IMG/VR virus record: IMGVR_UViG_3300024503_000573 | Coordinates: 1-21,629 of that record | Length of the DNA stretch: 21,629 nt | From: a virus | Direction: 5' to 3' (one strand) | Shown: in pieces, positions 7,451 through 21,289 of the stretch | Numbering within the stretch: position 1 is the stretch's first letter | Layout: the number at the start of each line of letters is the position of its first letter | Position numbers and translations under genes: made by a program | The notes under the pieces: generated by a model | Database searches by the model: none | What the model was told of the DNA's origin: nothing | The model's input: only the letters and a program-made list of their open reading frames with translations

Positions 7451-7469
7451 AGTCTCATTGTGCGAGACT
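7451..7469 (-). promoter_or_regulatory. leader hairpin of the barrel-protein gene
   Basis: AGTCTC and GAGACT (7451-7456 and 7464-7469) form a perfect 6-bp stem with a 7-base loop. It lies at or just after the expected transcript start. It could stabilise the 5' end of the mRNA or be an operator. Confidence 0.45.
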
Positions 7470-7475
7470 TGATAC

Positions 7476-7504
7476 ATTTTACATTTGCTTCGGGATCATG
7501 TCAA
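7476..7504 (-). promoter_or_regulatory. sigma-70-type promoter TTGACA-17-TAAAAT for the barrel-protein gene
   Basis: The -35 TTGACA (7499-7504) overlaps the stop of the GT25 gene, and the -10 TAAAAT is at 7476-7481 with a 17-base spacer. The leader to ATG 7421 is about 50 bases and contains the hairpin at 7451-7469. Confidence 0.75.
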
Positions 7505-8298
7505 GTATTTTGTTGTGCAACAGAGTTTTCGGTTATTCGACCCAAATATGGATCATAATTCATATATTCTCGAATATCAACATCTGCACCAGATTGTTGC
7601 CACCAGTTTAGCAATGCATCATGAGGACCTTTATGAAAAATATTAAGATGATCTGTATGGATTGTAGATCCCATATCCAAGTTATACAAGAATAGAGGAA
7701 TTGTATATGTTTTACCGGTTTCCAAAATTGTATCTTCAGAAACTGCTCTTGGTTTTACACCATTATCAAGTTTATATTTACTACCGCGAATATGATGCTT
7801 CATAAGTTTTGCAGCATGATGTCTACTGATTAAGTAAATTGCTGCGGAAAAATCATTAATAAATTTCAAGTGCAATTTTACATGAATATCTCCAGTACAA
7901 ATTGTAGTTAATTGCACGCAATCCCAATCATATGGAAGAAGTGAGAAAAATTCTGTCCAAGTAAAATTCCAATATCTGGCAATATCAAGATTTACATCAT
8001 CTTCTAAAATTAAACAATATTCATCATTTGTATTTTCATAAAAATGTCGAATTGCTTTGAGATGAGACATACAACATCCCAACTCATTCTGAGATACATT
8101 ATCAGGAATTCTTCCTTTTAAATGGGAAGATACATCATCAACCCTACCATCATAACCGGAAATGCGTGTATGATTTTCGATTTCCCAATACTTAAATTGA
8201 TTTTCCATATACTCACGACGATGAGTATCTGCATCTAAATTTAACCAATAGATGTTAGGAAGATCTTTAAGTTTAAATACTGATTTGTTCTTATCCAT
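7501..8298 (-). CDS. glycosyltransferase family 25-like protein
   Basis: Last gene of the glycan operon, 265 residues from ATG 8298 (TGATG overlap with the upstream stop). It matches GT25, the LPS/LOS galactosyltransferase-type family. It has an N-terminal strand and Arg-rich turn (NIYWLNLDADTHRREYMENQ), the central NELGCCMSHLKAI motif at about 71-83, and the acidic metal-site motif YCLILEDDV (E99, D100, D101). Near 184-190, VSEDTIL could be a further conserved acidic pair. Such enzymes transfer a hexose from a nucleotide sugar to a lipopolysaccharide core or protein. Donor and acceptor cannot be read from the sequence. Length is normal for the family. Confidence 0.85.
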   Translation of the reverse strand: MDKNKSVFKLKDLPNIYWLNLDADTHRREYMENQFKYWEIENHTRISGYDGRVDDVSSHLKGRIPDNVSQNELGCCMSHLKAIRHFYENTNDEYCLILEDDVNLDIARYWNFTWTEFFSLLPYDWDCVQLTTICTGDIHVKLHLKFINDFSAAIYLISRHHAAKLMKHHIRGSKYKLDNGVKPRAVSEDTILETGKTYTIPLFLYNLDMGSTIHTDHLNIFHKGPHDALLNWWQQSGADVDIREYMNYDPYLGRITENSVAQQNT

Positions 8299-9845
8299 CA
8301 CTGAAAATACTTGACAATGTTTTCTCTATTTCCTTTAATATAACCGATACATTCTTTTAAATCATCTGGAAGATTATTCCATAAATTTGCCATTTCTTGT
8401 CCAGCTTCATCTTTGTTATAATTTGTTCCTTGTGCATGTTGGATTTGATGATCATAATCTCTGATCACTGGTCTCTTCATAATAAAAGAAATTGCATTCA
8501 TTACAAGATCCCAACCCCACCCCATTTTCATAGTCTCGGGAGTCATAATCTTTAAAAGATCTCTCTTGTAAAAATCACCAATCACATCTTTATGAATAAA
8601 CCATACTGTTTCATCAGTACACGCAACCATTTTAATATTAGAATCTTCAGATTCTAATCCTTCAATATCAGTCTGATCTGGAGTGTACCAAATGTTAGTT
8701 ACATCCGGAGCATAAACTCCCCATTCATATAGATTATAATACTTTCTTGCATCATCAACAAGTTGTTTCCAATTAGTATATTGAGTATCTCCTTGGATAT
8801 GAAGTAAAACTTTTTTATCATCTTTAAAGAGTTCCAGTGCTTTAGTAAATTGAGATGTAAAATAAGCAGAGTCTCCAAGATTAACCCAACCTTCTCTAGT
8901 ATTATTATCATCACTATTGATAACAGTAACATCATCAAATACTTCTTTCAGTGCATCTTCAATGGCACAAGTTTTTTCAAACTGACGATTCCAATTAAAA
9001 ATGAATGGTTGAATATCCTTTACTCTAATTTGAGGAAATCTTTCCAAGTAACCTCTACCATTAAGATCCGCATGATCTCCATGATCATTGCTAGTATTTA
9101 AATCCTGATAAAGAATCTCAACATAAGGATTTAAAATACGCGCATAGTTTGTAATGTTTGAAGACTTACCAATAATTGTTTTACACATTGACAAGGTAGT
9201 TGCATCAATCAAAACTTCATCACCAGCAAGAATTCTTTCGGCACTATTAGGTTCTGCTTGAATAGAATAATGAAGACCAGCAGTACTCATCGTGCGTTGA
9301 TGATCATAATGATGAATTGTGATATCTAGGAAATAATTTTTAAATTCGTCAATTACATTACTTTGATCTGTCGTAAGAAATATACAATCATATCCACCAG
9401 AATTAAACTCTTCTTTGGCTACCTTTAAGTATTTTTCAATAGCAACAAATTCAGTATGACCAACTCCATCAGTTCCACGATAGTGAACACCCAAAGCATT
9501 TTTATATTTTTCTTTAGCAATACTATCAATTTTTGCTTGCATTCTTTCATTATAAGGCAAGTACTTGCGGTACTTATCCAAATCAAAGTCCCTAAAAGAT
9601 GCCCAAGGATAGTCACAATCCCATCCATCTTGAGAATTAAACGCTTTATTGGCATCATCAGATACACGAGAGGAATCAAACCAATGATCTGGAGTTCCAT
9701 ACAACATAAACATTGATGGAGAAACGCAGACTTGATTAAGATCAACTCCTTTATTCTCAAGTGTTCTAAAACTTGTCAAAATAGTAAGATAGTTTGAGAG
9801 AAATCCGCGATGCATTCCCTCAACTAACTTAATCTCAAAACTCAT
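8298..9845 (-). CDS. two-domain glycosyltransferase fusion (fucosyltransferase-like plus second domain)
   Basis: A 515-residue protein that seems to join two enzymes. The N-terminal part, up to about residue 275, resembles GT11/GT23 fucosyltransferase-like proteins. GVHYRGTD (H121, R123, D126) equals the HxRxTD donor-binding motif, and LTTDQSNVIDEFKN matches the paralog encoded at 17259-18101. From about residue 280 (FIFNWNRQFEKTCAIEDAL) a second domain starts with an SDDNN acidic motif and LLHIQGD, and later MKMGWGWD. It looks like a nucleotide-diphospho-sugar transferase fold, but the family is uncertain. A fusion would let two successive sugars be added by one protein. Confidence 0.72.
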   Translation of the reverse strand: MSFEIKLVEGMHRGFLSNYLTILTSFRTLENKGVDLNQVCVSPSMFMLYGTPDHWFDSSRVSDDANKAFNSQDGWDCDYPWASFRDFDLDKYRKYLPYNERMQAKIDSIAKEKYKNALGVHYRGTDGVGHTEFVAIEKYLKVAKEEFNSGGYDCIFLTTDQSNVIDEFKNYFLDITIHHYDHQRTMSTAGLHYSIQAEPNSAERILAGDEVLIDATTLSMCKTIIGKSSNITNYARILNPYVEILYQDLNTSNDHGDHADLNGRGYLERFPQIRVKDIQPFIFNWNRQFEKTCAIEDALKEVFDDVTVINSDDNNTREGWVNLGDSAYFTSQFTKALELFKDDKKVLLHIQGDTQYTNWKQLVDDARKYYNLYEWGVYAPDVTNIWYTPDQTDIEGLESEDSNIKMVACTDETVWFIHKDVIGDFYKRDLLKIMTPETMKMGWGWDLVMNAISFIMKRPVIRDYDHQIQHAQGTNYNKDEAGQEMANLWNNLPDDLKECIGYIKGNRENIVKYFQ

Positions 9846-9846
9846 T

Positions 9847-10203
9847 TCAATCTCCTTTAATTACACGATAACTATCTTCATCAAAATGTTGCGTTGAAAA
9901 TTCAAAAAGTTCAGTATCTTCAAGAGCAATCATTTGATGTCTTAATCCACGATAAACATGAAACTTATCTCCTTTATTCAGGGTCAGTTCATGTGCTAAA
10001 GCAATATCATCTTCATCATAATATTTTAACAAAATTTTTCCAGATTGTAAATAGAAAACTTCATCTTTCAATTTATGAAAATGCCAGGAGCATCTTTTAC
10101 CCTTAACAAAATATAAAAGTTTTCCACAGTACTCTTCTGAATTGACAATCCATTTTTCAAATCCCCATCCTTTAGGGACAAATTTAATTTCCGAAGAACT
10201 CAT
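9847..10203 (-). CDS. cupin-domain sugar enzyme
   Basis: The start at 10203 (118 residues) is preferred because AAGGA lies upstream; an ATG at 10224 has no ribosome site. The protein is a single cupin barrel. GKRCSWHFHKLKDEVFYLQS, ending in G, fits the G(x)5HxH(x)4E(x)6G cupin motif exactly, and GDKFHVYRGLRH supplies the last metal-binding His. Cupins of this type include phosphomannose/sugar-phosphate isomerases and nucleotide-sugar epimerases. The adjacent genes encode a HAD phosphatase, PfkB kinase and nucleotidyltransferase, so a sugar-phosphate step, possibly isomerisation, is likely. It overlaps the HAD gene by 20 bases. Confidence 0.8.
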   Translation of the reverse strand: MSSSEIKFVPKGWGFEKWIVNSEEYCGKLLYFVKGKRCSWHFHKLKDEVFYLQSGKILLKYYDEDDIALAHELTLNKGDKFHVYRGLRHQMIALEDTELFEFSTQHFDEDSYRVIKGD

Positions 10204-10507
10204 TTGCGTTAATTCCTTTGTCATCTATGTAGACATCACCAGCAGGTTTACCCATAAACAATTTGTGATATTTACAACCCCATTCTTTAAGTTGTAACTC
10301 TGTTATATATCTCAAATCTGACTCTGCTAGTTGTGCATTATTATCATATCTACCCATACCTCGTGCAGTAAGATAAACAATGTAATGTCCTTCATCATAA
10401 AGTTGATTGATTACTTTTATCCTATCTCTTTTTGGTGTAGATGATGAATAACTATCGCCATCAGATTTATCACAAATAGTTCCATCAATGTCAACAACGT
10501 ATTTCAT
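10184..10507 (-). CDS. small HAD-superfamily sugar phosphatase
   Basis: The 107-residue protein from ATG 10507 has a complete HAD active site without a cap domain. Motif I is VVDIDGT (nucleophile Asp6, acid/base Asp8), motif II is YLTARG (Thr47), motif III is MGKP (Lys87) and motif IV is YIDDKG (Asp95, Asp96). HAD phosphatases of this small type occur in capsule and LPS heptose pathways, where GmhB-like enzymes remove a phosphate from heptose bisphosphate. GGAG lies about 9 bases before the chosen ATG; a GTG at 10522 and an ATG at 10516 are alternatives. It overlaps the kinase gene by 17 bases, so the steps are probably made together. Confidence 0.83.
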   Translation of the reverse strand: MKYVVDIDGTICDKSDGDSYSSSTPKRDRIKVINQLYDEGHYIVYLTARGMGRYDNNAQLAESDLRYITELQLKEWGCKYHKLFMGKPAGDVYIDDKGINANEFFGN

Positions 10508-11240
10508 TAATGTCATCTCCACTTAAAACATAAGTCCCAAAGTTTTGAACTGCTATTGCAGCTGCCTTGTTAGCGTAAGGTATTGCTTTTTCTATCGTAC
10601 CACACTCTAGGTAAAAGTAAACTAGTGCAGATAAAAAGGTGTCTCCCGCGCCACAAACATCAAATACACTTACTTTTTCTCCAGGGTAAGTTATACCATC
10701 ATATTCTGCTCCACCAGAACCTCTAGTAATGATAATGTTGTCATGTTTACTTTTTAAGAGTTTCGATTCATTATCATTAATCTTAATAAAACAATTTGAC
10801 TCTGGGAGAATTGTCTTTTTACTATCAACAAAAACAGGAATTCTAGAGTTAAAAACTACTTCAAATAATTTTTGTTGAGTAATAAATCCTTTGTCATAAT
10901 CAGAAATAACCAATGCATCATATTTTTCATTTGGTATTTCATATTCCATTGGAGATAAAGGATCCTCAATATCTACGCGAAGAATTTGATGATTATATTT
11001 TTCATCAATATATCTTGTTTTATAAATTTTTTCTTTATTGGTTAGCATATAAACTTCCATACCGAATGCTTGGAGATTATCTCTAACATTCCACGCCATC
11101 CCATTCTTACTTTCTTTTCTATGAAACTTAAGAATTGGCACTGGTGCTTCTGGATTTAATCTTTCACAAGTTCCATAGACATATTCATCGACGCAACTAT
11201 CTCCGATTAATAATATCTTGTATGGTTTTTGTTGTGGCAT
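10491..11240 (-). CDS. PfkB-family kinase resembling the HldE/RfaE1 heptose kinase domain
   Basis: In HldE, this domain phosphorylates D-glycero-manno-heptose 7-phosphate at C1. Here the start shows IGDSCVDEYVYGTCERLNPE followed by APVP, matching the RfaE1-type N-terminal signature. The end shows FDVCGAGDTF with catalytic Asp200 and the anion hole. At 249 residues it is some 60-70 residues shorter than a usual HldE kinase domain, and the normally GGAANVA-like segment reads KNGMAWNV, so substrate use may differ. AGGAG lies just upstream of the ATG. It overlaps by 44 bases the nucleotidyltransferase gene, the other half of an HldE-type enzyme, here encoded separately. Confidence 0.85.
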   Translation of the reverse strand: MPQQKPYKILLIGDSCVDEYVYGTCERLNPEAPVPILKFHRKESKNGMAWNVRDNLQAFGMEVYMLTNKEKIYKTRYIDEKYNHQILRVDIEDPLSPMEYEIPNEKYDALVISDYDKGFITQQKLFEVVFNSRIPVFVDSKKTILPESNCFIKINDNESKLLKSKHDNIIITRGSGGAEYDGITYPGEKVSVFDVCGAGDTFLSALVYFYLECGTIEKAIPYANKAAAIAVQNFGTYVLSGDDINEIRC

Positions 11241-11595
11241 AATCTCCTATCCTATCAAAGAATATTAATTCAGCAGCATAATAAGAACCTATTACAGACT
11301 TACCTTTCCAGTCAGAACCAACAACCATTATATCAGGTTTAAAGGATTTTACCAAACCCTCAAGTTCTTCATCGCTAGAAAACAGTTTTACCTCATCCAC
11401 TGCCTTTAGATTTTCTAGAAAAAATTTCCTTTCATCTTGATTATGTATGGGTCTTGTTGAACCCTTCTTTTCTTTTACTCTTTCATCAGTATCAATACCA
11501 ACACACAAATAATCACCAAGACTTTTTGCATAATTCAAAAGTTCAAGGTGACCTCTATGTAGAATATCAAATGTTCCGTTTACAAAAATGTTCAT
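11197..11595 (-). CDS. cytidylyltransferase-like sugar nucleotidyltransferase (HldE C-domain type)
   Basis: A 132-residue single-domain member of the HxGH nucleotidyltransferase family. VNGTFDILHRGH holds the HxGH motif (His13, His16). The core includes VVGSDWKGKS and the C-terminal TTKTIQDI segment equals the STTxxI motif of HldE/RfaE2 and glycerol-3-phosphate cytidylyltransferases. It would transfer AMP or CMP to a sugar-1-phosphate. With the kinase next door, an NDP-heptose is the most coherent product, though glycerol-phosphate or another sugar cannot be excluded. The start overlaps the upstream SDR gene by 29 bases. Confidence 0.85.
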   Translation of the reverse strand: MNIFVNGTFDILHRGHLELLNYAKSLGDYLCVGIDTDERVKEKKGSTRPIHNQDERKFFLENLKAVDEVKLFSSDEELEGLVKSFKPDIMVVGSDWKGKSVIGSYYAAELIFFDRIGDYATTKTIQDIINRR

Positions 11596-12388
11596 AACAG
11601 TTTTTAATCTCTTTTTCTAATCCACTAAACTTTATTCCAAAAGTTTTTAACAATTCACCAGAACCACAATACGACTTGTCCATCCCTTCTTCCAAAACAG
11701 TTACGGGAACTTTATATTCCGATAGACTGTTTATAATCCTAGAAACATCAGACAATTTCGTTTTTGTTTCATAAACTAAATTAACTTCCTTTGGTAAATC
11801 TTTTCTCAATTCAAGATATAAATCAATAACTTTTTTTGTATCTTCTATTCCAAAAAAGTCCATAAACTTATCCTTAAAAATAACAATTTCTTTCTTAAGG
11901 ATATAATTTTTTATATTCACAGAGGTAAACATATTATCTGGAGTTTCTGGTCCAAATACATTAAAGAACCTCAAGTTATAAACATGATCCAATTGACGAC
12001 ATCTTTGTGATATAAGACACTTTGCAAAACCATAATAATCTTCAGGAATTATTTCTCCCACTTGATTTTCTTTTGCAAGATAAATGTCTTTTTGTCTACC
12101 AAATGCAGCACCACTACAAAAATTAATCATTGGAACTTTTTGTGCTGCAAGGTTTTCAAACATTTTCATATTTACATAAAAATCGTCAGGAATATCCTGA
12201 CGAATTCTACGACCACCTTTAATTGCAGCGTGGAGAATAAAATCAATATTATTCTCCTTTACAAACAAATCAACCAGACCTTTATTTGTATAATCAACAT
12301 CAGGATAAAAAACATCATGAGTTTTAAGAAGATGCGGTATGACTTCTCTCCCTAAAAATCCACGATGTCCAGTAAAAAGAATATTCAT
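11567..12388 (-). CDS. NAD(P)-dependent sugar epimerase/dehydratase (extended SDR)
   Basis: A 273-residue extended short-chain dehydrogenase. The Rossmann nucleotide motif is TGHRGFLG (residues 6-13), the catalytic Ser lies in FCSGAAFG (S92), and the active-site pair is YGFAK (Tyr119, Lys123). NLRFFNVFGPETPDN is the usual substrate-loop region. Extended SDRs of this form act on nucleotide sugars as epimerases, reductases or dehydratases. In heptose pathways HldD is such an enzyme, but I cannot tell which reaction occurs here. ATGA overlap upstream and 29-base overlap downstream make it part of the continuous operon. Confidence 0.85.
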   Translation of the reverse strand: MNILFTGHRGFLGREVIPHLLKTHDVFYPDVDYTNKGLVDLFVKENNIDFILHAAIKGGRRIRQDIPDDFYVNMKMFENLAAQKVPMINFCSGAAFGRQKDIYLAKENQVGEIIPEDYYGFAKCLISQRCRQLDHVYNLRFFNVFGPETPDNMFTSVNIKNYILKKEIVIFKDKFMDFFGIEDTKKVIDLYLELRKDLPKEVNLVYETKTKLSDVSRIINSLSEYKVPVTVLEEGMDKSYCGSGELLKTFGIKFSGLEKEIKNCYEHFCKRNI

Positions 12389-12855
12389 CTACTTAGGTTA
12401 ATATAGGAAGGAGAAGAACCATACAGAAATTCTTTAATATTAATGTCTTCTTTATCCTTTGGTCTAAAAGTTTTTATGTTTGGAAACAAAGAAAGAACTT
12501 GTTGGTCTTCACAAGCATAGTGAGAAAATCCACAAACTCCATAGTCATCATCTCTACCACTTCCCACAAGTTTAACAGGGATATTCTCGTGGTTTACATA
12601 GTTGCGAATAAACTCAAATGGACGATAAAGAACAAATGGAGTAATAGAGTAAACAACAGGAATAATACCTTCCATTGCCATACCAACTGCCATACCGATC
12701 ATAAGTTGTTCAGAAGCACCAGGATTAATAACTCTATTCGGAAACTCTTTTCTCAAATCATCAAATAATCCATATCCAACATCACCAACCAAAAGAGAGA
12801 TATTTTCATTCTCTCTCATTTCACTAGTTAGTAAATCTCTAAAAGTTCTTCTCAT
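12385..12855 (-). CDS. transketolase-like subunit, pyrimidine-binding domain only
   Basis: A 156-residue protein equal to the middle (Pyr) domain of transketolase/DXS-type thiamine diphosphate enzymes. NPGASEQLMIGMAVGMA carries the conserved Glu49 that activates the cofactor's pyrimidine ring. Downstream, GFSHYACEDQ corresponds to the GxTH..xED substrate-site region. It lacks the third, C-terminal transketolase domain seen in many split enzymes of roughly 310 residues. The partner PP-binding half is encoded immediately upstream with ATGA overlap, so the two products should form a heterodimeric or heterotetrameric enzyme. It could move a two-carbon unit between sugars. Confidence 0.85.
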   Translation of the reverse strand: MRRTFRDLLTSEMRENENISLLVGDVGYGLFDDLRKEFPNRVINPGASEQLMIGMAVGMAMEGIIPVVYSITPFVLYRPFEFIRNYVNHENIPVKLVGSGRDDDYGVCGFSHYACEDQQVLSLFPNIKTFRPKDKEDINIKEFLYGSSPSYINLSR

Positions 12856-13475
12856 AGTGCCTCCAAAGCAGATTGATATTGTTCCTCACTAAAGTTTGTA
12901 TAATGTGCATGAAGACCTTCTAAACCATAATGATTTACTGTTGTCCTTACAAAGTTTACATATGGATTAAATGCTTTAATCCTATTTTCAAGATAGTCTA
13001 AGTCAACAGCATCATAAGCAGCCCATCCATTTGCGTTCACATAAATCTTGAGATTGTGAAGATTGTTCTCATAAGCAAAACGAAGTGCTTCCCACACAGA
13101 ACCTTCTGCTGATTCGCCATCAGAAATCATACAGTAAACATTACGATTAGGATTTGCAAGTGCTCTTCCAACAGCAACTGTAATGCCCATTCCAAGACTT
13201 CCTGTTGAGCAATGAAGTTTTACAGTCTCATCTCTTTTTGGATGCTCTCCATATTTTTCTAGAAGTTCTTCAGCATTAAATCCAAAGTACTTTTCAAGAA
13301 CAACATATAAAGACACTACTGCGTGACCATTTGAAAGAATAAAAATATCATCTTCATTCATTTCACTATAGATCTTATCAATTAGGTCAAGACAAGAAAA
13401 GTAACTTCCTAGATGATGAAGTTGCTTTTCATAACAGATATCAAGAAGTCTCCTAGTCAGTTTTTCATCCGTCAT
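12852..13475 (-). CDS. transketolase-like subunit, diphosphate-binding domain
   Basis: Companion of the previous gene. The start at 13475 (207 residues) has GGAG upstream; two ATG codons at 13490-13493 are alternatives. The thiamine-diphosphate motif is visible as ISDGESAEGSVWEA followed by IYVNANGW (D119, G120, N147/N149), the first glycine of GDG being Ser. HHLGSYFSCLDL replaces the usual GHPGGSLS start, and LSNGHAV (49-53) and STGSLGMG are further cofactor-pocket motifs. At 207 residues it is shorter than the usual 270-residue N-half. Inferred role: sugar transketolation feeding glycan synthesis, possibly sedoheptulose 7-phosphate. Confidence 0.84.
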   Translation of the reverse strand: MTDEKLTRRLLDICYEKQLHHLGSYFSCLDLIDKIYSEMNEDDIFILSNGHAVVSLYVVLEKYFGFNAEELLEKYGEHPKRDETVKLHCSTGSLGMGITVAVGRALANPNRNVYCMISDGESAEGSVWEALRFAYENNLHNLKIYVNANGWAAYDAVDLDYLENRIKAFNPYVNFVRTTVNHYGLEGLHAHYTNFSEEQYQSALEAL

Positions 13476-14175
13476 AACCAAGAACTCCATCATAAGTAAG
13501 TTTCATTGTCTTTTTACCAAGTGATTCAAGTCTTTCAATAACTTTATTCACATTCTCTTCCATCTTACCAACACCCTCAAAATCATGAACCTCAACATAG
13601 ATTGCATCAATTTCTTTAATAGCGTCTTCGAATGATGGATCATGCACAACTACATTTTCAAATCCTTCAATGTCCATCTTTACAAAATTCACTCTCTTTT
13701 TCACAGTATTTTTAATAAAATCGGCAAGAGTTGTAGTAGGAACCATGACACTATCAGTGCCACCAGGATCAATACCATGACGAAGAAAAGAATTCATAGT
13801 CGAATTGCTACTATTCAACTGAAACTCTTCTTCTCCATTTTTAGTATGAATAGCAACTTGATGTGGAAAAATATTTTTTACCTTAAGACTTTTTAAAATA
13901 TCTCCCATAATTTCAATATGAGATGGAGTTGGTTCTACTGCATATACTTCTTTACAGATAGAACTCATATAAAGAGAAAACAATCCAATATTAGCACCAA
14001 GATCAACCATTACAACATCTTCATTGTCCTCAAGAAATGAATAAAAACCATCCTCAAATTGATCAAGAATTGCAATTGTTTTTGAATGAGGTGTATTATG
14101 GTGCTCCAAAAACTTTTTAGATTTGGAAAGATCATATGTTTCAAGATCTTTAATTGTTTTCAAAATAACAGACAT
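13465..14175 (-). CDS. FkbM-family methyltransferase
   Basis: A 236-residue S-adenosylmethionine-dependent methyltransferase of the FkbM type. MVDLGANIGLFS (about 56-67) is the SAM-binding glycine loop, VEPTPSHIE ends the second strand, and VKMDIEGFE is the FkbM hallmark. In surface-glycan clusters FkbM enzymes usually O-methylate a sugar hydroxyl, which can block recognition by other phages or receptors. AGGAG lies 5 bases before the ATG. The stop overlaps the start of the transketolase N-half by about 11 bases. The substrate sugar cannot be identified. Confidence 0.88.
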   Translation of the reverse strand: MSVILKTIKDLETYDLSKSKKFLEHHNTPHSKTIAILDQFEDGFYSFLEDNEDVVMVDLGANIGLFSLYMSSICKEVYAVEPTPSHIEIMGDILKSLKVKNIFPHQVAIHTKNGEEEFQLNSSNSTMNSFLRHGIDPGGTDSVMVPTTTLADFIKNTVKKRVNFVKMDIEGFENVVVHDPSFEDAIKEIDAIYVEVHDFEGVGKMEENVNKVIERLESLGKKTMKLTYDGVLGYDG

Positions 14176-14176
14176 T

Positions 14177-15055
14177 TTATTCTCCTAAAATTGTTTGAAT
14201 GTAATCGCGTACTTCTGATTTAATTATACCATATAACCAGTTATAATGGTCACCATATTGTTTAATAGTTTCCATTGTACCTACTCCAGCGGCATGAAGT
14301 ATGCTTGTTCTCAATGGTTCTCCCGTAATTGGGTGATCAATATAAACAGAGTTGTCTTTTATGTAAAGATTTTTCCAACTCTCACAATGATCTTTTTCTC
14401 CCCACTGATTAACTATACCATAAGTTACACCACTTCCCTCTCTATCAATTATTTCACTTGTATACTTATCTTTTGCATGAAATATATGATTCCAAGTATC
14501 TTGTTCATTACGAATTAAGGGCCATGGTTTATAGGTAAAAGTTCTTCCATCACTTTGCTCAGCAACAAACTTATTAAAGTCTCTCCACTCATACCAAAAT
14601 TGCTTATCATTTGAAGCAATAAATCCCGCATTAAGAAACTCATTTACACCTATCATTCCACCATCGCCATATGGTTCATAAAAAGGACTTACACAAGGTT
14701 GTGCTGATCCTGCTTTACCAAAGAAGTTATTGTTTCTAACTCCTATCAATTCTGCATTTGAATCAATAACTTTATCAAGACTACCAATACAAAAAGAGTC
14801 TGCATCAATATGAATTACCATATCATAATCTTCAACTAAAGGAAGACATGTCACGACCATCATCCAATCAGAAAACCTAACATTTTCTGCACCAAGCCAA
14901 GGATATTCTTTTGTTATATTTTTTGTATCCTCTGTCCCAAAAATATGAAAGTCTATCTCCGGATGAAAATGATTGATGAGTTTTTGCAACTTATCTGGTC
15001 TTAGATAAGGTGCATAGTCATCAGTACACCATGTAGAAACTGCAATCTTTTTCAT
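14177..15055 (-). CDS. GT-A-type glycosyltransferase
   Basis: A 292-residue protein with the look of GT8/galactosyltransferase-like enzymes. After an N-terminal nucleotide-binding region (KKIAVSTWCTDDYAPYL) it has the metal-binding DxD motif in VIHIDADSF (Asp84, Asp86). A middle block includes FYEPYGDGGMIGVNEFLNAG, and the end has SILHAAGVGTMETI, where a His could bind the donor diphosphate. It should transfer a sugar from a nucleotide sugar with Mn2+ or Mg2+. It starts in an ATGA overlap with the upstream methyltransferase. Donor and acceptor unknown. Confidence 0.8.
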   Translation of the reverse strand: MKKIAVSTWCTDDYAPYLRPDKLQKLINHFHPEIDFHIFGTEDTKNITKEYPWLGAENVRFSDWMMVVTCLPLVEDYDMVIHIDADSFCIGSLDKVIDSNAELIGVRNNNFFGKAGSAQPCVSPFYEPYGDGGMIGVNEFLNAGFIASNDKQFWYEWRDFNKFVAEQSDGRTFTYKPWPLIRNEQDTWNHIFHAKDKYTSEIIDREGSGVTYGIVNQWGEKDHCESWKNLYIKDNSVYIDHPITGEPLRTSILHAAGVGTMETIKQYGDHYNWLYGIIKSEVRDYIQTILGE

Positions 15056-15675
15056 TTTATTTTTTTGAAGATAGATGTAAGTATATTTGGATATGAATGC
15101 TCGGTCTTACGAATAGAGTCTTCAATATTTGTATGGTTAACATATTCATAATTTTGAGACTCAACAAAACTCCTCAAAGATTTTTCATCAAAATGCCAGA
15201 GGTGTTCATCTGGTCTTCTATGCTTCCAATTTTCAAACCATTCATCATTAAAATTATGACACCAAGGAACACTTATACAAATATAATCACACTGCAGTTT
15301 ATCTAAAAAGTAAATATCATCAAAATGTTCTAAAGAATCAAAGAAACTAATGACATCATAATGACTATCAAAGATATTATCTACAGTTTTAATTTTACTT
15401 GGCAAATTAACACCACTAACATCATACCCAAAACAATTTGGAATTATTTCACTACATGTTTTTAAAAAACTTCCATTCCCGTATCCAACATCAAGAATAG
15501 AATTTGGAACTTTACCTAGAGAACCTATAACAAATCCAAGTCTTAGATAAGACATATAGTTTGTCAATTCGCCATAAGAGTTATATCTAGTATCGACATA
15601 TTTTTGATCATATGTAATTGGTTTGCATATAATCTGTTTTATTACGCCATTATCATCTTTTTGATAGTTTTTCAT
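15052..15675 (-). CDS. class I SAM-dependent methyltransferase
   Basis: A 207-residue methyltransferase of the small Rossmann type. SILDVGYGNGSFL (about 59-71) is the SAM-binding motif I, YDVSGVN marks the end of strand two, and VISFFDSLEHF is the motif that often follows in Methyltransf_23-like proteins. It probably methylates a sugar or sugar-linked group in the glycan made by the operon. ATGA overlaps link it to both neighbours. This is the second methyltransferase in the operon, so the product may carry two methyl groups. Confidence 0.83.
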   Translation of the reverse strand: MKNYQKDDNGVIKQIICKPITYDQKYVDTRYNSYGELTNYMSYLRLGFVIGSLGKVPNSILDVGYGNGSFLKTCSEIIPNCFGYDVSGVNLPSKIKTVDNIFDSHYDVISFFDSLEHFDDIYFLDKLQCDYICISVPWCHNFNDEWFENWKHRRPDEHLWHFDEKSLRSFVESQNYEYVNHTNIEDSIRKTEHSYPNILTSIFKKIK

Positions 15676-16451
15676 ATTTTTTGATCATATTCAACGATAA
15701 CCCAACGATTATCATTTAAATGGGAATTTACCAACAGCAATCCATTATCAGCTCTTAGATCATGAAAATAAAGATCTGCTTTTAAGTCTAAAGGTAAAGA
15801 ATCAACTAGACAAAATACAGAACTTGGGGAAACATGAATCTCTGTAGCATTTTCAATGACTTTAATCCAATCTAATAGATTATCTGTTATATTATCTTTT
15901 ATTTTTATGATTGTCAAGTCAGAGTTTTTGCCATTTCTCCAACCAAACATATCAAATTCATATTCATCGCTTGCACTTGATGAATCGTGTACAAGAATAT
16001 AATTTTTTACATTCCCAACTACTTTTTCGTAAAGATCATCCGCTCCCTTTATTTGTTTTGGTAATTTGAAATTACTATATCTTTCCGAATAAAGAACTTC
16101 TGCTTGTTCATAAAACTGTCTCTCAAAATTTATTCCAACCCATTTTGGGGGGCATTGTTCTCTTTCCAGATAAGTATAAATGACTTTATCATAACCTATT
16201 TTAAGGTAATCAAATTTAGTTTCAGAAGACCAATCAGAAACTTCTTTTTCAAGATTATCCCAATCATTATCAAATGCTTTTGGAATAATATTTGGGAAAT
16301 CTTGATAGAGACAATCTATTGTGTTATAAAACTTTTTTCTGCATGGTAAATATAAAGTCTCATACTTTTGTGCATAATGATGCACCATACCATTACAAAG
16401 AAAATGATCACCCAAACCAGGATGATGATGAAGAATTAAATTTTTTTTCAT
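15672..16451 (-). CDS. GT-B-like glycosyltransferase, tandem paralog A
   Basis: A 259-residue protein starting LILHHHPGLGDHFLCNGMVH, with a glycine-rich GLGDHFxCN turn like the first loop of GT-B enzymes such as heptosyltransferases (GT9). Later parts (ILVHDSSSASDEY, ENATEIHVSPSSVFCLVDSL) match the C-terminal donor-domain pattern of an acidic/Ser pocket followed by a VDS motif. The next gene encodes a clear paralog, with the shared NFERQFYEQA segment in both. GT9-like transfer is an inference from the fold-like motifs only; no named family is certain. Confidence 0.65.
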   Translation of the reverse strand: MKKNLILHHHPGLGDHFLCNGMVHHYAQKYETLYLPCRKKFYNTIDCLYQDFPNIIPKAFDNDWDNLEKEVSDWSSETKFDYLKIGYDKVIYTYLEREQCPPKWVGINFERQFYEQAEVLYSERYSNFKLPKQIKGADDLYEKVVGNVKNYILVHDSSSASDEYEFDMFGWRNGKNSDLTIIKIKDNITDNLLDWIKVIENATEIHVSPSSVFCLVDSLPLDLKADLYFHDLRADNGLLLVNSHLNDNRWVIVEYDQKI

Positions 16452-17257
16452 TACATTAAATGAGAGTATCTAACTATGTTCCAGCGATTAAATCCTGTTG
16501 CTAAACAATTTATTTGCTGCATAGTGTTATATCGAATATCATGATAAAAAAGTTTGGCATTAATTTTAGTACATACACTATCAACAAGATGAAAAAATCC
16601 ACTGTTTACACAATGTATCTCTCTTGCATTTTCAATTAGTTTCATATAAGAAAGAACATTATTAGTTTGCCCCTTTTTAATTTCAATTACTTTGCTTGGA
16701 ATTTTTTCATCAGGTCTCCAAGATGAAATTTCTATGGGATATTCATTTCTAAAACTTGAATTTTTATGAACTACAATGTAGTCATTATTATCACCAACTA
16801 ATTTTTCATAGACTTCATCAACATCAGGAATTTTTTTAGGCAAAACAAACTTTTCATATCTATCTTTATAAAACATATTTGCTTGTTCATAAAACTGTCT
16901 TTCAAAGTTTGGAGCAAACTTTTCTGGATATGCTTCACCTTCTCCTCTTGGAGTATTTTTCCTCATCATTTCTCGATAATTTAAGTTCTCAAACCCAAGT
17001 CTTATAATTGGGTATCCCATCTGTTGAGCCCAAGGAAACATTTCTCTTTCAAGAGTTGCCCAATCATCATGAAAAGAATGAACAATAATATTTGGATAAT
17101 CACTATACAAACATTCTAAAGTTTCAAAATACCTATGATGAGTAGGGATATGCAAACGATCGGTCATTTTTACATATTCATGAACAATTGCATTACAAAT
17201 GAAATGATCACCAAGTCCAGTATGATGATGAAAAACTAAATCAGAATATTTTTGCAT
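16451..17257 (-). CDS. GT-B-like glycosyltransferase, tandem paralog B
   Basis: A 268-residue paralog of the downstream product. Shared segments are HHHTGLGDHFICNAIVHEY, NFERQFYEQA, YIVVHKNSSFRNEY, ENAREIHCVNSGFFHLVDSV, and an R-W-x-I-V-x-Y motif near the end. It has a short insertion around residues 80-112 (NTPRGEGEAYPEK) absent from copy A. The stop overlaps the start of copy A as TAATG. The two probably add neighbouring sugars, or the same sugar at two places. Same uncertainty over family as for copy A. Confidence 0.65.
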   Translation of the reverse strand: MQKYSDLVFHHHTGLGDHFICNAIVHEYVKMTDRLHIPTHHRYFETLECLYSDYPNIIVHSFHDDWATLEREMFPWAQQMGYPIIRLGFENLNYREMMRKNTPRGEGEAYPEKFAPNFERQFYEQANMFYKDRYEKFVLPKKIPDVDEVYEKLVGDNNDYIVVHKNSSFRNEYPIEISSWRPDEKIPSKVIEIKKGQTNNVLSYMKLIENAREIHCVNSGFFHLVDSVCTKINAKLFYHDIRYNTMQQINCLATGFNRWNIVRYSHLM

Positions 17258-17258
17258 A

Positions 17259-18101
17259 TTAGTTTAGATTACCAAATTCATCAAATTGAAAAACATTATT
17301 GACACTTCCTCGATAAAGATTCATCCATAAACCACAATTGCCCGTATGATTGACGACATATGAACATTCAGAAACACACCTAAGTGCAGAATCAAACCAC
17401 TGCATCCAATCCATAGTATCTTTCCCTTCGTTCTCCATTACAGTGTTCATTGCATCTGTACCGTAAGTCGAAGGAGTTTCTTCAAAGTGAATAACCATAT
17501 CTCCAAGTTCATTTTTAAAATAATCTATAACTTGTGTCTGATCACTTTGAACTAAAACTTTTTTAGCAGAAGTTGCTTGTAAAAGTTGCTTAACCGCTAT
17601 CAAATAATTTGAAGGATGCGATAAACGAACTTCAGTCCACTTATCAGTTCCTCTATAAAGAACAGAAATTGTTTCTGTAGGATTAATATTATATTTTTGC
17701 ATTAAAAAATTTTTTCTTTCCAAAATTAAATCACTTGGATTAAAAAACTTATTAATTACTTGATTATAATATTCAAAATCATAAAGTCCAAATTGCTTTT
17801 TATTTTCGTCAGGCAAAGCAACTTTTTTAAACAACTTTACTTTTTTATTAAAATCAATTTTATAAAAATCTGGGAAAATATCACGATTCTCATCTTTTTT
17901 GAATCTCTTGAATCCCATTGAATAATTAATTACATCAGGTTCTATACCATGACTTAATAAGATTAAGAGAGAAAGAAATGCTTGTGTTTGATTAGAATAA
18001 AACCCACAGTTCCACATGCAATCCAGCTGATTCATTTCTGGATGATTAATCGAACTGCACCCCCCAGTAGATGCAGTATATTTACAATGTCGTAACTTCA
18101 T
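17259..18101 (-). CDS. fucosyltransferase-like (NodZ/GT11/GT23-type) glycosyltransferase
   Basis: A 280-residue protein with the motif VLYRGTDKW (about 148-155), the family HxR-x-TD donor site with the first His replaced by Leu. It also has LVQSDQTQVIDYFKNELGDM (about 183-202), homologous to the N-terminal domain of the fusion protein at 8298-9845. Several cysteines cluster near the N-terminus (CKYTASTGGC, LDCMWNC). Family members transfer fucose or similar deoxyhexoses from GDP sugars, which would suit the GDP-mannose-derived sugar made by the upstream gene. ATGA overlap with that gene supports the link. The donor sugar is inferred. Confidence 0.72.
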   Translation of the reverse strand: MKLRHCKYTASTGGCSSINHPEMNQLDCMWNCGFYSNQTQAFLSLLILLSHGIEPDVINYSMGFKRFKKDENRDIFPDFYKIDFNKKVKLFKKVALPDENKKQFGLYDFEYYNQVINKFFNPSDLILERKNFLMQKYNINPTETISVLYRGTDKWTEVRLSHPSNYLIAVKQLLQATSAKKVLVQSDQTQVIDYFKNELGDMVIHFEETPSTYGTDAMNTVMENEGKDTMDWMQWFDSALRCVSECSYVVNHTGNCGLWMNLYRGSVNNVFQFDEFGNLN

Positions 18102-19183
18102 TTTAATTCAATTTGAGTTTTAATCCAGTTATAAGTTTTACGAATACCCTCTTCAAGAGTTTGAGAGTAATCCCAACCTAGTTTTTCGCGAATAAGATCA
18201 TTGTTAGAATTTCGACCACGAACACCTAGAGGACCATCAATATGATTTTTTTCTACAACTTTACCTGCGACTTTAGCAGCAGTATCTACTAGTTGATTAA
18301 TAGTAACCATTTCTTCAGAACCAATATTCACAGGTCCAATAAAATCACTATCCATCAATCTGCGGGTTGCTTCGATACATTCATCAATATACAAGAAGGA
18401 ACGAGTTTGTAACCCGTCTCCCCACACCTCGATAGTTCCACCTTCCTCTGAAAGGTAGGCAACTTTACGGCAAATTGCTGCAGGAGATTTTTCCCTTCCC
18501 CCTTCCCAGGTTCCTTCAGGTCCAAAGATATTATGATACCGAGCAACCCGAACAGGGATCCCGTGATTACGAGAATAAGCGAAAAACAACCGCTCTGAGA
18601 AGAGTTTTTCCCAACCATATTCAGAATCTGGTGCTGCGGGATATGCTGATTCTTCACGGCAATCTGGATTATTGGGATCAAGTTGATTATGTTCTGGATA
18701 CATGCAAGCAGAACTAGAATAAAAGATTTTAGTCTGATAGTCTAGAACAGGTCGAACACATTCAGTACCATTATCTACACCATTAAAAGTTTCATTAAAC
18801 TGACGCTGTGCTTCAAGAACATTAAGATTAATGGTTGCAGAGTTATGCATGATGTCTGCATCATTTTCGCCAGTGAAAACAAATCCAGCACCACCCATAT
18901 CTGCAGCAAACTGATAAATCTCATGGAAAGGGCGAATGTAACGATAAGGGACTGAATTATAAAAATTACCCTGTTCGCCTTTGAATTCAAGGGTACATCG
19001 AACAAAACCCATGTCCCTCAAGTCTCCCAAAACAAATTCATCTGCTTCGGAAATTGAAAACTCGGGATACTTAATATCAACTCCACGGACCCAATATCCC
19101 TCAGACTTTAATCTCTTTACCATGTGACTTCCAATGAATCCACCAGCACCTAATACAAGTGCAGTTTTCTTATAATCACTCAT
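18098..19183 (-). CDS. GDP-mannose 3,5-epimerase-like enzyme
   Basis: First gene of the glycan operon, 361 residues. It follows plant GDP-mannose 3,5-epimerase closely: GAGGFIGSH (12-20) for NAD, AADMGGAGF, the catalytic Cys in SSSACMYPEH (Cys160), YGWEK (Tyr189, Lys193), RYHNIFGPEGTWEGGREKSP, GDGLQTRSFLYIDEC, and GVRGRNSNNDLI. The plant enzyme converts GDP-D-mannose to GDP-L-galactose or GDP-L-gulose. Here the product would feed the GDP-sugar transferases in the operon. A sigma-70-type promoter at 19210-19238 lies 27 bases upstream, and a terminator is fused to it, so the operon clearly starts here. Length agrees with the family. Confidence 0.9.
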   Translation of the reverse strand: MSDYKKTALVLGAGGFIGSHMVKRLKSEGYWVRGVDIKYPEFSISEADEFVLGDLRDMGFVRCTLEFKGEQGNFYNSVPYRYIRPFHEIYQFAADMGGAGFVFTGENDADIMHNSATINLNVLEAQRQFNETFNGVDNGTECVRPVLDYQTKIFYSSSACMYPEHNQLDPNNPDCREESAYPAAPDSEYGWEKLFSERLFFAYSRNHGIPVRVARYHNIFGPEGTWEGGREKSPAAICRKVAYLSEEGGTIEVWGDGLQTRSFLYIDECIEATRRLMDSDFIGPVNIGSEEMVTINQLVDTAAKVAGKVVEKNHIDGPLGVRGRNSNNDLIREKLGWDYSQTLEEGIRKTYNWIKTQIELK

Positions 19184-21080: not shown

Positions 21081-21098
21081 AAAGTGAAGTTTTATGAG

Positions 21099-21172
21099 TC
21101 GGGGTGACAGGATTCGAACCTGCGACCCTCTGCTCCCAAAGCAGATGCGCTACCAAGCTGCGCTACACCCCG
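21099..21172 (-). tRNA. tRNA-Pro (anticodon TGG)
   Basis: A canonical tRNA: acceptor CGGGGTG / CACCCCG, D-arm GCGCAGCTTGGTAGCGC, anticodon arm TCTGC-TTTGGGA-GCAGA with TGG, T-arm GCAGG-TTCGAAT-CCTGT. No CCA is encoded. The first base follows directly after the stop codon of the micropeptide gene at 21173-21289. Confidence 0.95.
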
Positions 21173-21289
21173 TTACTTGTTTTTGTGTATGTACATAATA
21201 CCAGCAAAAGGTACAACTGTCAATCCCATTCCACAAAGAAAAAGAAAGAAAGGACTTGCTGCTAGGGTTTCAACCAAGTGGAAAATCAT
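21173..21289 (-). CDS. 38-residue membrane peptide
   Basis: ATG at 21289 overlaps the upstream stop as ATGA, and TAA abuts the first base of tRNA-Pro. The product (MIFHLVETLAASPFFLFLCG, then MGLTVVPFAGIMYIHKNK) has one long hydrophobic span from about residue 10 to 34 and a basic end. The exact fit between its neighbours supports a real gene. Function unknown; single-span micropeptides are common in this stretch. Confidence 0.62.
   Translation of the reverse strand: MIFHLVETLAASPFFLFLCGMGLTVVPFAGIMYIHKNK

Follow-up and report, generated by a model that had tools for sequence, protein, structure and literature searches.

A run of five genes at positions 9847-12388

The window analyzed here is the whole 21,629-nucleotide stretch of virus record IMGVR_UViG_3300024503_000573. 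This 21.6-kb record has traits of a cyanophage. A profile search of the window proteins identified a ferredoxin and a peroxiredoxin, and a megablast match of the window spans a phage high-light-inducible gene. The best DNA match is to Synechococcus phage DSL-LC02, over 10% of the window length. At positions 9847-12388 there are five intact open reading frames (ORFs) on the minus strand, with no internal stops, that are predicted to encode, in order, an extended short-chain dehydrogenase/reductase (SDR), an HxGH nucleotidyltransferase (NT), a PfkB kinase, a HAD phosphatase, and a cupin (Table 1). Adjacent ORFs overlap by 17-44 bases. A first-pass annotation had described this run as a heptose-activation set that lacks the isomerase GmhA and might use the cupin instead. 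The five overlapping genes and their motifs were confirmed, and the core of the run recurs across cyanophage clusters more often than by chance. The phage probably carries its own four-enzyme cassette leading from sedoheptulose 7-phosphate to nucleoside diphosphate (NDP)-heptose, with the cupin as the isomerase.

A four-gene core recurs in cyanophages

The kinase matches 33 phage records, 27 of which are named Synechococcus, Prochlorococcus, or cyanophage (several are duplicates of one phage). It also matches 48 viral-contig loci, four of which (L008-L011) encode a kinase 100% identical to that of the window. Excluding the slice of the window itself (L001), a kinase match was present in 60 loci, which form 35 clusters at 95% kinase identity. 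The same locus contains a cupin in 34 of these clusters, an NT in 32, and a HAD in 31. All four core genes are present in 29 clusters, in the order NT-kinase-HAD-cupin in 27 and shuffled in P-TIM68 and S-SM2. Two of the three clusters that miss the NT are loci that start at the kinase, and the sole cupin-free cluster is L061, a 735-kb uncultured phage with a kinase of 328 amino acids. The gap between kinase and cupin does not exceed 340 bases in 25 of the 34 clusters, usually with the HAD gene in between, 1.0-2.1 kb in eight, and 7.2 kb in one. A window-like SDR was found in 9 of the 35 clusters and is thus outside the constant core; part of the window SDR can be aligned with SDRs of other cyanophage clusters, at 21-25% identity. 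The split transketolase was considered as a core gene and rejected, with a half present in 3 of 35 clusters.

The four core genes are carried by all nine annotated records (P-SSM2, S-CAM1, S-CAM3, S-SSM7, Sf-FS3, Sf-CH8, S-T4, P-TIM68, and S-SM2). In several of them it lies near tail-fibre and neck genes, together with carbamoyltransferases and 2-oxoglutarate oxygenases. The HAD is labelled 'phosphoheptose isomerase' in 9/9 records and the cupin 'cysteine dioxygenase' in 7/9. The label of the HAD in PHROG 1238 and in NC_006883, NC_020837, NC_031906, NC_015287, NC_015279, NC_028955, NC_048049, PV340853, and PV340856 is likely a propagated mislabel. We rejected this annotated gene as the missing isomerase because it is a HAD. 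GmhA (TIGR00441, SIS fold) was not found at E ≤ 0.01 in any of the nine full-length phage records or 13 phage contigs; the window itself is a fragment. Earlier papers have hinted in passing at a heptose pathway in phages of this kind. The announcement of SynMITS9220M01 lists genes for a heptose kinase, a phosphoheptose isomerase, and a heptose epimerase (PMC7378029), and a survey of pelagimyophages mentions rfaE (PMC7029224); the passages of these papers on such genes make no mention of the cupin.

Relationships of the kinase, nucleotidyltransferase, HAD, and SDR

By far the best PDB match of the kinase, in both sequence and fold, is HldA (4e84 and its complexes). The phage kinases contain [LI][NS]PEAPVP-type and GAGD motifs, with a few that vary in the first, such as LAPDKPVP in L057. 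They are a short form of 243-279 amino acids (24/24 phage sequences) compared to the 315 positions of TIGR02198 (rfaE_dom_I). Alignment with full-length HldA-type kinases showed that approximately 25 residues are gone after GMAxNVxxNL and more before the VTxGS strand, and that GAGD, SDYxKG, and most of KxR...QxxRxD are retained. The match to TIGR02198 (E = 1.5e-40, 139.2 bits in two stretches) is under the curated NCBIfam cut-off of 345 bits, as are those of most cell relatives (1/379 genomes above).

The top NCBIfam match of the NT is TIGR02199 (rfaE_dom_II) with an E-value of 1.5e-31 and 109.1 bits, which is under the cut-off of 181.5 bits. It also matches TIGR01518, the model for glycerol-3-phosphate cytidylyltransferase, at 80.9 bits. 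Residues H13, G15, and H16 of its HxGH motif are invariant in 21 sequences. Its top matches in the PDB are ethanolamine-phosphate, putative, and glycerol-3-phosphate cytidylyltransferases (3elb, 5x9q, and 1coz). Because NCBIfam favours the heptose model and the nearest PDB chains are cytidylyltransferases, we assign no nucleotide to this enzyme.

The HAD matches TIGR01689, the capsule-biosynthesis phosphatase EcbF-BcbF, at 7.2e-10 and 38.9 bits (cut-off 162) and in Pfam HAD_PNKP at 4.8e-05, also under the cut-off. The profile of its family matches the capsule biosynthesis protein 9iqw in the PDB (1.6e-18). No GmhB model in NCBIfam was matched by the phage HAD at E ≤ 0.01; two cell homologs of the GmhB type match PRK08942 at 158 and 181 bits. 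The SDR matches TIGR02197 (heptose_epim, HldD) at 2.5e-10, and its 40.1 bits are under the cut-off of 274.6.

The sub-threshold scores of these four proteins in NCBIfam and the PDB ranking of the NT weigh against a heptose pathway. The reading of the run in the first-pass annotation is supported overall. The kinase comes closest to heptose kinases in profile, PDB sequence, and fold alike, and among NCBIfam families the NT comes closest to the heptose model. The SDR as a defined HldD (ADP-heptose 6-epimerase) is not supported, given a score so far below the cut-off and the variability of the SDR between phages. To judge from their sequences, the four proteins may work like heptose-pathway enzymes without belonging to those families.

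The cupin

Residues H48, H50, E55, and H96 of the cupin are invariant in 19 sequences, including the window. We take these to be the metal-ligand places of the cupin motif. An AF2 model of the protein (pLDDT 93.4) is a cupin barrel, and the top Foldseek matches of this model are D-lyxose isomerases (7nzp first). By VIA, CapF, the phosphomannose isomerase of Thermococcus (7zvy/7zvm), Pac13, KdgF, and D-lyxose isomerase fall within one Z unit of each other at Z 15-16; absence of a fold family from this list does not exclude that family. Cupins are functionally diverse and, because CapF, Pac13, and KdgF tie with the isomerases, the fold alone leaves the activity of the cupin unsettled, which counts against too ready a reading of it as an isomerase. 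No RmlC family is among the matches listed for the phage cupin in Pfam and NCBIfam, where no test aimed at RmlC features was made.

We compared 81 distinct cupin relatives comprising 9 linked to a kinase, 19 from phages, and 53 others (53 of 83 cupin matches were left out of the H/Q reading). A YC[GS]K motif with H-x-H is present in 9/9 kinase-linked and 19/19 phage cupins. Among the 53 others, 40 have Q-x-H and 13 have YC[GS]K with H-x-H, eight of them in loci with a short kinase and five in loci without one. The phage cupin has the signature YC[GS]K...CSxHxHxxxxE and groups with the kinase-fused cupins. In an unrooted tree built from few columns, a branch with support of 100/99 separates 41 rows, made up of the kinase-linked and phage cupins and five others, from the rest. 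The five H-x-H cupins from kinase-free loci (L067, L069, L071, L074, and L106) weaken the link between this motif and the kinase. L065 has both a Q-type cupin fragment and an H-x-H cupin in the neighbourhood of its kinase.

Q-type relatives in Erysipelotrichaceae (L077-L090) are another uncharacterised sugar-phosphate cupin. In the two loci that were read, L078 and L088, the Q-type gene is directly 3' of an ORF that by eye resembles 6-phospho-3-hexuloisomerase. In L078 this is preceded by a hexulose-phosphate-synthase-like ORF, with transketolase-like halves nearby (also by eye).

Cupin and GmhA exclude each other beside HldA-type kinases

A cupin profile scan of 84,980 species genomes yielded 32 loci. 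Seven of these, in metagenome-assembled genomes (MAGs), have the phage-type cassette, with all four genes in L062-L065, L070, and L079 and the kinase and cupin in L066; the DNA of these seven could come from phages through misbinning. A full-length HldA-type kinase carries the cupin as a C-terminal fusion in L075 (Levyibacteriota) and L076 (Parcubacteria). The cupin is also C-terminal in the fusion of L134 and is N-terminal in L133, L136, L137, L163, and L164. In L139 (genome G144) it is GmhA itself that is fused N-terminally to the kinase. Alongside its kinase-cupin fusion, L075 (genome G001) encodes an HldC-GmhB fusion, an HldD (401 bits, cut-off 274.6), and a GT9 heptosyltransferase, and the heptose pathway predicted from this locus is complete except for GmhA. 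Neither G001 nor G002 has a GmhA, the highest score being 19.9 bits in a frame of 588 amino acids, or a SIS_2 match above the cut-off (at most 14.5 bits).

This distribution was examined in genomes with HldA-type kinases. Among 379 genomes of the same phylum (Patescibacteria), TIGR02198 was matched at E ≤ 1e-20 in 23 and at E ≤ 1e-60 in 16. In a draw of 242 genomes from the class to which G208 belongs, 15 reached E ≤ 1e-60, including 11 that were not already among the 16. This threshold was chosen at a gap in the list of the first scan and then applied to the second. The test set consisted of 28 genomes with a kinase at this level, 27 from the two scans plus G002, which entered through its cupin. 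Beside the kinase there is a cupin in nine genomes (eight fused, one adjacent), a GmhA in 17, both in none, and neither in two. The GmhA of the 17 genomes is fused, adjacent, or within 0.6 kb of the kinase (in G593 it is 0.5 kb off and cut by the locus end). The two genomes with neither encode a member of the GmhA family at another site (G130, 214 bits; G640, 102 bits). For eight of the 19 genomes without a cupin beside the kinase, the GmhA call was made by matching the ORF next to the kinase to a local profile (E ≤ 2e-53). The nine cupin genomes are G001, G002, G030, G186, G208, G238, G320, G631, and G647. The search for GmhA found none in G002, G030, G208, and G238 and only parts of frames of 588-665 amino acids scoring under 29 bits in G001, G186, G631, and G647. 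G320 has a cupin-kinase fusion plus a 90-bit SIS gene on another contig. Fisher's test gave p = 1.4e-7 for strong GmhA, 2.9e-6 when the G320 gene was counted, and 4.5e-7 without G002, all uncorrected for kinship. Seven genomes with weaker TIGR02198 matches (80-148 bits) were left out of these counts. Of these, G070, G115, and G227 have a GmhA of 125-198 bits, and G121, G254, G300, and G348 have none at E ≤ 1e-6; G348 also has cupin matches of 43-78 bits.

The most telling single locus shows the replacement in situ. In G030 there is an NT cut by the contig end, followed by a GmhB, the kinase, the cupin, an RmlD-like gene, and a LepA-like gene. G102, G052, and G170 have gmhA in the place of the cupin, with the NT, kinase, and RmlD-like genes, the LepA-like gene where the contig reaches, and GmhB in G052 and G170. 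The homologs in these three genomes are 61-82% identical to the G030 genes, including the LepA-like gene (RmlD and LepA were named by eye). A single origin of the cupin-linked kinases was rejected by the AU test (p = 1.3e-5); kinases were labelled 'cupin-linked' before the tree was built, but the one-clade test was run after inspection of the tree.

Several points temper the exclusion. The kinase tree requires three changes, of which two are independent contrasts on supported branches, and with only two to three such contrasts no sign test is possible after correction for the tree. Four of the nine cupin-linked kinases have an unusual amino-acid make-up that can disturb both the tree and the AU test. 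Genome completeness was not given, so an absent GmhA proves nothing for any single genome. The SIS gene of G320 is an exception to the exclusion at the level of the genome, and the GmhA genomes G052, G088, G200, and G237 have other cupin relatives elsewhere (43-113 bits; that of G237, the only one read, is of the Q type). Lastly, L073 contains, at 7461-11435, a PfkB kinase, NT, and cupin set together with a separate set of a GHMP-like kinase (by eye), a SIS gene, and a HAD-NT fusion. The two sets of L073 look as if each kinase type had kept its own isomerase.

The suggestion that the cupin stands in for GmhA is nevertheless supported by fusion or adjacency to HldA, by mutual exclusion, by the one in-situ swap, and by fold relatives that are sugar ketol-isomerases. 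The sequence comparisons thus support the cupin as a putative non-orthologous replacement of GmhA, common to phages and Patescibacteria.

Two further cellular observations concern the genomes themselves. HldA-type kinases of L165-L171, from the class of G208, are in genomes that apparently read TGA as sense, and GmhA is at most 0.6 kb from the kinase in all but L166. L072, from a MAG filed as Bifidobacterium breve, has at 8700-14500 of a 250-kb contig the phage-type cassette, with an NT, a cupin, a Zn-dehydrogenase, a short transketolase-like gene, a short kinase, an SDR, and a HAD; GmhA was not found in its 1.4-Mb genome. The contig of L072 may belong to a freshwater actinobacterium that acquired the cassette by transfer, or it may have been misbinned.

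Proposed pathway and alternatives

From these observations we infer each catalytic step, as well as the involvement of a nucleotide and an acceptor. The cupin would isomerise sedoheptulose 7-phosphate in place of GmhA, the short PfkB kinase would phosphorylate C1, the HAD would remove the C7 phosphate, and the HxGH transferase would add the nucleotide. The variable SDR would tailor the activated sugar, and the glycosyl- and methyltransferases of the same gene run would use it to decorate the virion or host surface. A glycan of the virion or host surface is suggested as the acceptor because glycosyl- and methyltransferase genes neighbour the cassette.

The cupin could instead be a phosphomannose or lyxose/mannose-type isomerase in a cassette that activates a hexose or pentose, for example from mannose-6-phosphate through mannose-1,6-bisphosphate to NDP-mannose. 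Its fold and sequence relatives include D-lyxose/D-mannose, L-ribose, and phosphomannose isomerases. By eye, the Q-type relative L126 adjoins a mannose-1-phosphate nucleotidyltransferase-like ORF and others are beside hexulose-phosphate enzyme-like ORFs. However, the phage cupin clusters with the heptose-kinase-linked H-x-H cupins rather than with the Q-x-H ones, the phage kinase matches heptose kinases best, and the cell cluster L075 has an HldD and a GT9 heptosyltransferase. We consider a hexose or pentose substrate unlikely.

It is similarly doubtful that the cupin is an accessory acting on heptose phosphates or nucleotide-heptose, through anomer selection, kinase regulation, or C3/C5 epimerisation like DdahB and MlghB, with the isomerase elsewhere. 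Direct fusion to the kinase would also suit an accessory domain, and an SDR is nearby in some phages. Cupin-fold epimerases that act on GDP-heptose are described (PMC7949155), which is a point against the cupin as isomerase. However, these enzymes are RmlC-like, have at least 163 residues, and use a cofactor-free His-Asp dyad (PMC7949155), in contrast to the 125-residue cupin with invariant residues at the metal-ligand places. An accessory factor should also coexist with GmhA, yet the cupin occurs where GmhA is missing, and in G030 it occupies the gmhA slot.

A pathway for glycerol phosphate or another polyol, with a TagD-kind cytidylyltransferase and a kinase for a short polyol, would fit the TIGR01518 match of the NT, the first ranks of 3elb, 5x9q, and 1coz in the PDB (1coz shares a GxDWxGK-like stretch), and the Zn-dependent dehydrogenase and transketolase-like genes that adjoin the cassette in S-SM2 and P-TIM68, but it is very improbable given that rfaE_dom_II outscores the TagD model (109 versus 81 bits), that the kinase best matches HldA, and that we know of no polyol pathway that needs a PfkB kinase, a HAD phosphatase, and such a cupin.

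We therefore return to the cupin as a sedoheptulose-7-phosphate isomerase. On balance, we lean toward the fuller proposal that it represents an unrecognised family of such isomerases that replaced GmhA on more than one occasion in Patescibacteria and is found in many cyanophages; these phages would make NDP-heptose for a virus-specific surface glycan in hosts whose known lipopolysaccharide (LPS) lacks heptose.

Supply and acceptor in the host

A host that runs the Calvin cycle should have abundant sedoheptulose 7-phosphate. In the family of G020 (Prochlorococcus, the genome of L071), GmhA was found at E ≤ 1e-6 in 27 of 101 genomes and HldE-N at E ≤ 1e-20 in 18 of 101, and judging by these profile matches the hosts may seldom supply a heptose pathway. 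A phage-like cupin (177 bits) was found in 1 of 300 genomes, on the contig of L071, and 10 others scored 41-66 bits; the L071 contig also has a RecA/UvsX-like ORF (by eye). A review describes the LPS of the marine Synechococcus strains WH8102 and CC9311 as containing neither heptose nor Kdo and reports heptose in Spirulina (PMC4515613). With the LPS of WH8102 and CC9311 so described, no host acceptor for the sugar is known, which weighs against the proposal.

Neighbouring genes

The cassette is part of a longer run of minus-strand genes (Table 1).

Table 1. Predicted genes of the cassette and of its surroundings in the window.
Feature	Positions	Strand	Properties
SDR (extended), optional tailoring enzyme, proposed epimerase or reductase on activated sugar	11567-12388	-	273 aa; Epimerase 7.3e-16; motifs GHRGFLG, YYGFAK
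HxGH nucleotidyltransferase, proposed heptose-1-phosphate NTP transferase	11197-11595	-	132 aa; CTP_transf_like 2.2e-17; motif HRGH
Short RfaE1/HldA-like PfkB kinase, proposed heptose-7-phosphate 1-kinase	10491-11240	-	249 aa; PfkB 6.3e-13; motifs LNPEAPVP, CGAGDTF
Small HAD phosphatase (EcbF/BcbF type), proposed heptose-1,7-bisphosphate 7-phosphatase	10184-10507	-	107 aa from ATG; motif DIDGT
Cupin, proposed sedoheptulose-7-phosphate isomerase (GmhA replacement)	9847-10224	-	125 aa; Cupin_2 6.8e-07; motif WHFHKLKDE
Transketolase-type pyrimidine-binding half, optional; possible source of sedoheptulose 7-phosphate, or an enzyme for another sugar	12385-12855	-	Transket_pyr 1.4e-20
Transketolase-type TPP (thiamine pyrophosphate)-binding half, optional partner of the pyrimidine-binding half	12852-13493	-	Transketolase_N 3.4e-10
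GT25-type glycosyltransferase, downstream; possible user of activated sugar	7501-8301	-	Glyco_transf_25 2.4e-10
Possible glycosyltransferase, downstream; possible user of activated sugar	8298-9845	-	515 aa; weak FUT8_N_cat 0.0027
Upstream context genes: FkbM methyltransferase, second methyltransferase, second SDR, four without a Pfam match	13465-19183	-	Methyltransf_21 6.8e-16; Methyltransf_23 1.5e-15; Epimerase 1e-31

The four upstream genes without a Pfam family are at 14177-15055, 15672-16451, 16451-17257, and 17259-18101. Two of them, at 15672-17257, are an adjacent related pair with a GLGD motif that are 40% identical and are candidate glycosyltransferases. An identity as heptosyltransferases was not found for this pair, with no Pfam match for the genes and four relatives and no PDB match of their profile. 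The transketolase-like enzyme at 12385-13493 is split into two genes (213 and 156 amino acids) and has no C-terminal domain. S-SM2, P-TIM68, and L072 have a one-gene short form of 381-402 amino acids beside the same cassette that, where compared, is remotely similar to the split enzyme of the window. Elsewhere in the window, 81 bases at 21093-21173 are 97.5% identical to Synechococcus phages S-H35 and S-B64. Overall, megablast matched 250 phage records, of which 178 are mycobacteriophages, a count for the whole search in which the match positions of these are not given.

Significance and comparison with known systems

The step catalysed by GmhA is the first committed step to manno-heptoses and, to our knowledge, GmhA is the only family of sedoheptulose-7-phosphate isomerases. 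What is new here is a known pathway with an enzyme family at its first step that is predicted, from sequence, to be new. In the open-licence literature, we found no paper describing HldA-cupin fusions of Patescibacteria and, among the matches listed, no report of a cupin isomerase for sedoheptulose 7-phosphate, including as an alternative to GmhA. A review that contains both cupin and heptose treats them apart in the passages concerned (PMC4139412). GmhA has been studied as a drug target (PMC11056994). If the proposal is correct, a second, unrelated isomerase family would fill a pathway hole in genomes without GmhA, and a mislabelled gene in the cyanophage genomes examined would be corrected. 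It would also suggest that cyanophages bring in a sugar absent from the known LPS of their marine hosts, and the function of phage 'LPS genes' would become directly testable with a few purified enzymes.

The phage cassette resembles the ADP-heptose pathway of Gram-negative bacteria (GmhA, HldE or HldA plus HldC, GmhB, and HldD) in that kinase, NT, phosphatase, and epimerase-like genes are clustered and the kinase and NT are sequence relatives. It differs in having a cupin and no GmhA, a kinase that is approximately 35-70 residues shorter and separate from the NT, a HAD of the EcbF/BcbF kind rather than GmhB, and an SDR that is only remotely HldD-like. Compared to DdahB and MlghB of Campylobacter, the likeness is that of a cupin-fold protein in a heptose pathway; by their description, these enzymes belong to the RmlC family, act on GDP-4-keto-heptose, and are larger and cofactor-free (PMC7949155).

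Phosphomannose and D-lyxose/D-mannose isomerase cupins catalyse aldose-ketose isomerisation to the manno configuration. The phage cupin shares their fold (7zvy, 7nzp, and 2y0o) and differs from them by H-x-H (Q-x-H in the Q-type relatives), by the YC[GS]K and CS motifs, and by its linkage to heptose kinases. The cupins of the HldA-cupin fusions in Patescibacteria (L075, L076, L133, L134, L136, L137, L163, and L164) group with the phage cupin, whereas these fusions differ from the cassette in having a full-length kinase, being in cell genomes, and being accompanied by a GmhB-type phosphatase where this was read (L075 and L185). The closest counterparts are cyanophage T4-GC 304-308 (P-SSM2, S-SSM7, and S-SM2) and the sets of S-CAM1, S-CAM3, S-T4, Sf-CH8, Sf-FS3, and P-TIM68. 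All nine phages have the four core genes, in the order NT-kinase-HAD-cupin in seven, with genes inserted in S-SSM7, Sf-FS3, Sf-CH8, and S-T4 and a different order in P-TIM68 and S-SM2. Relative to these cyanophages, the window has an SDR preceding the NT and an added split transketolase.

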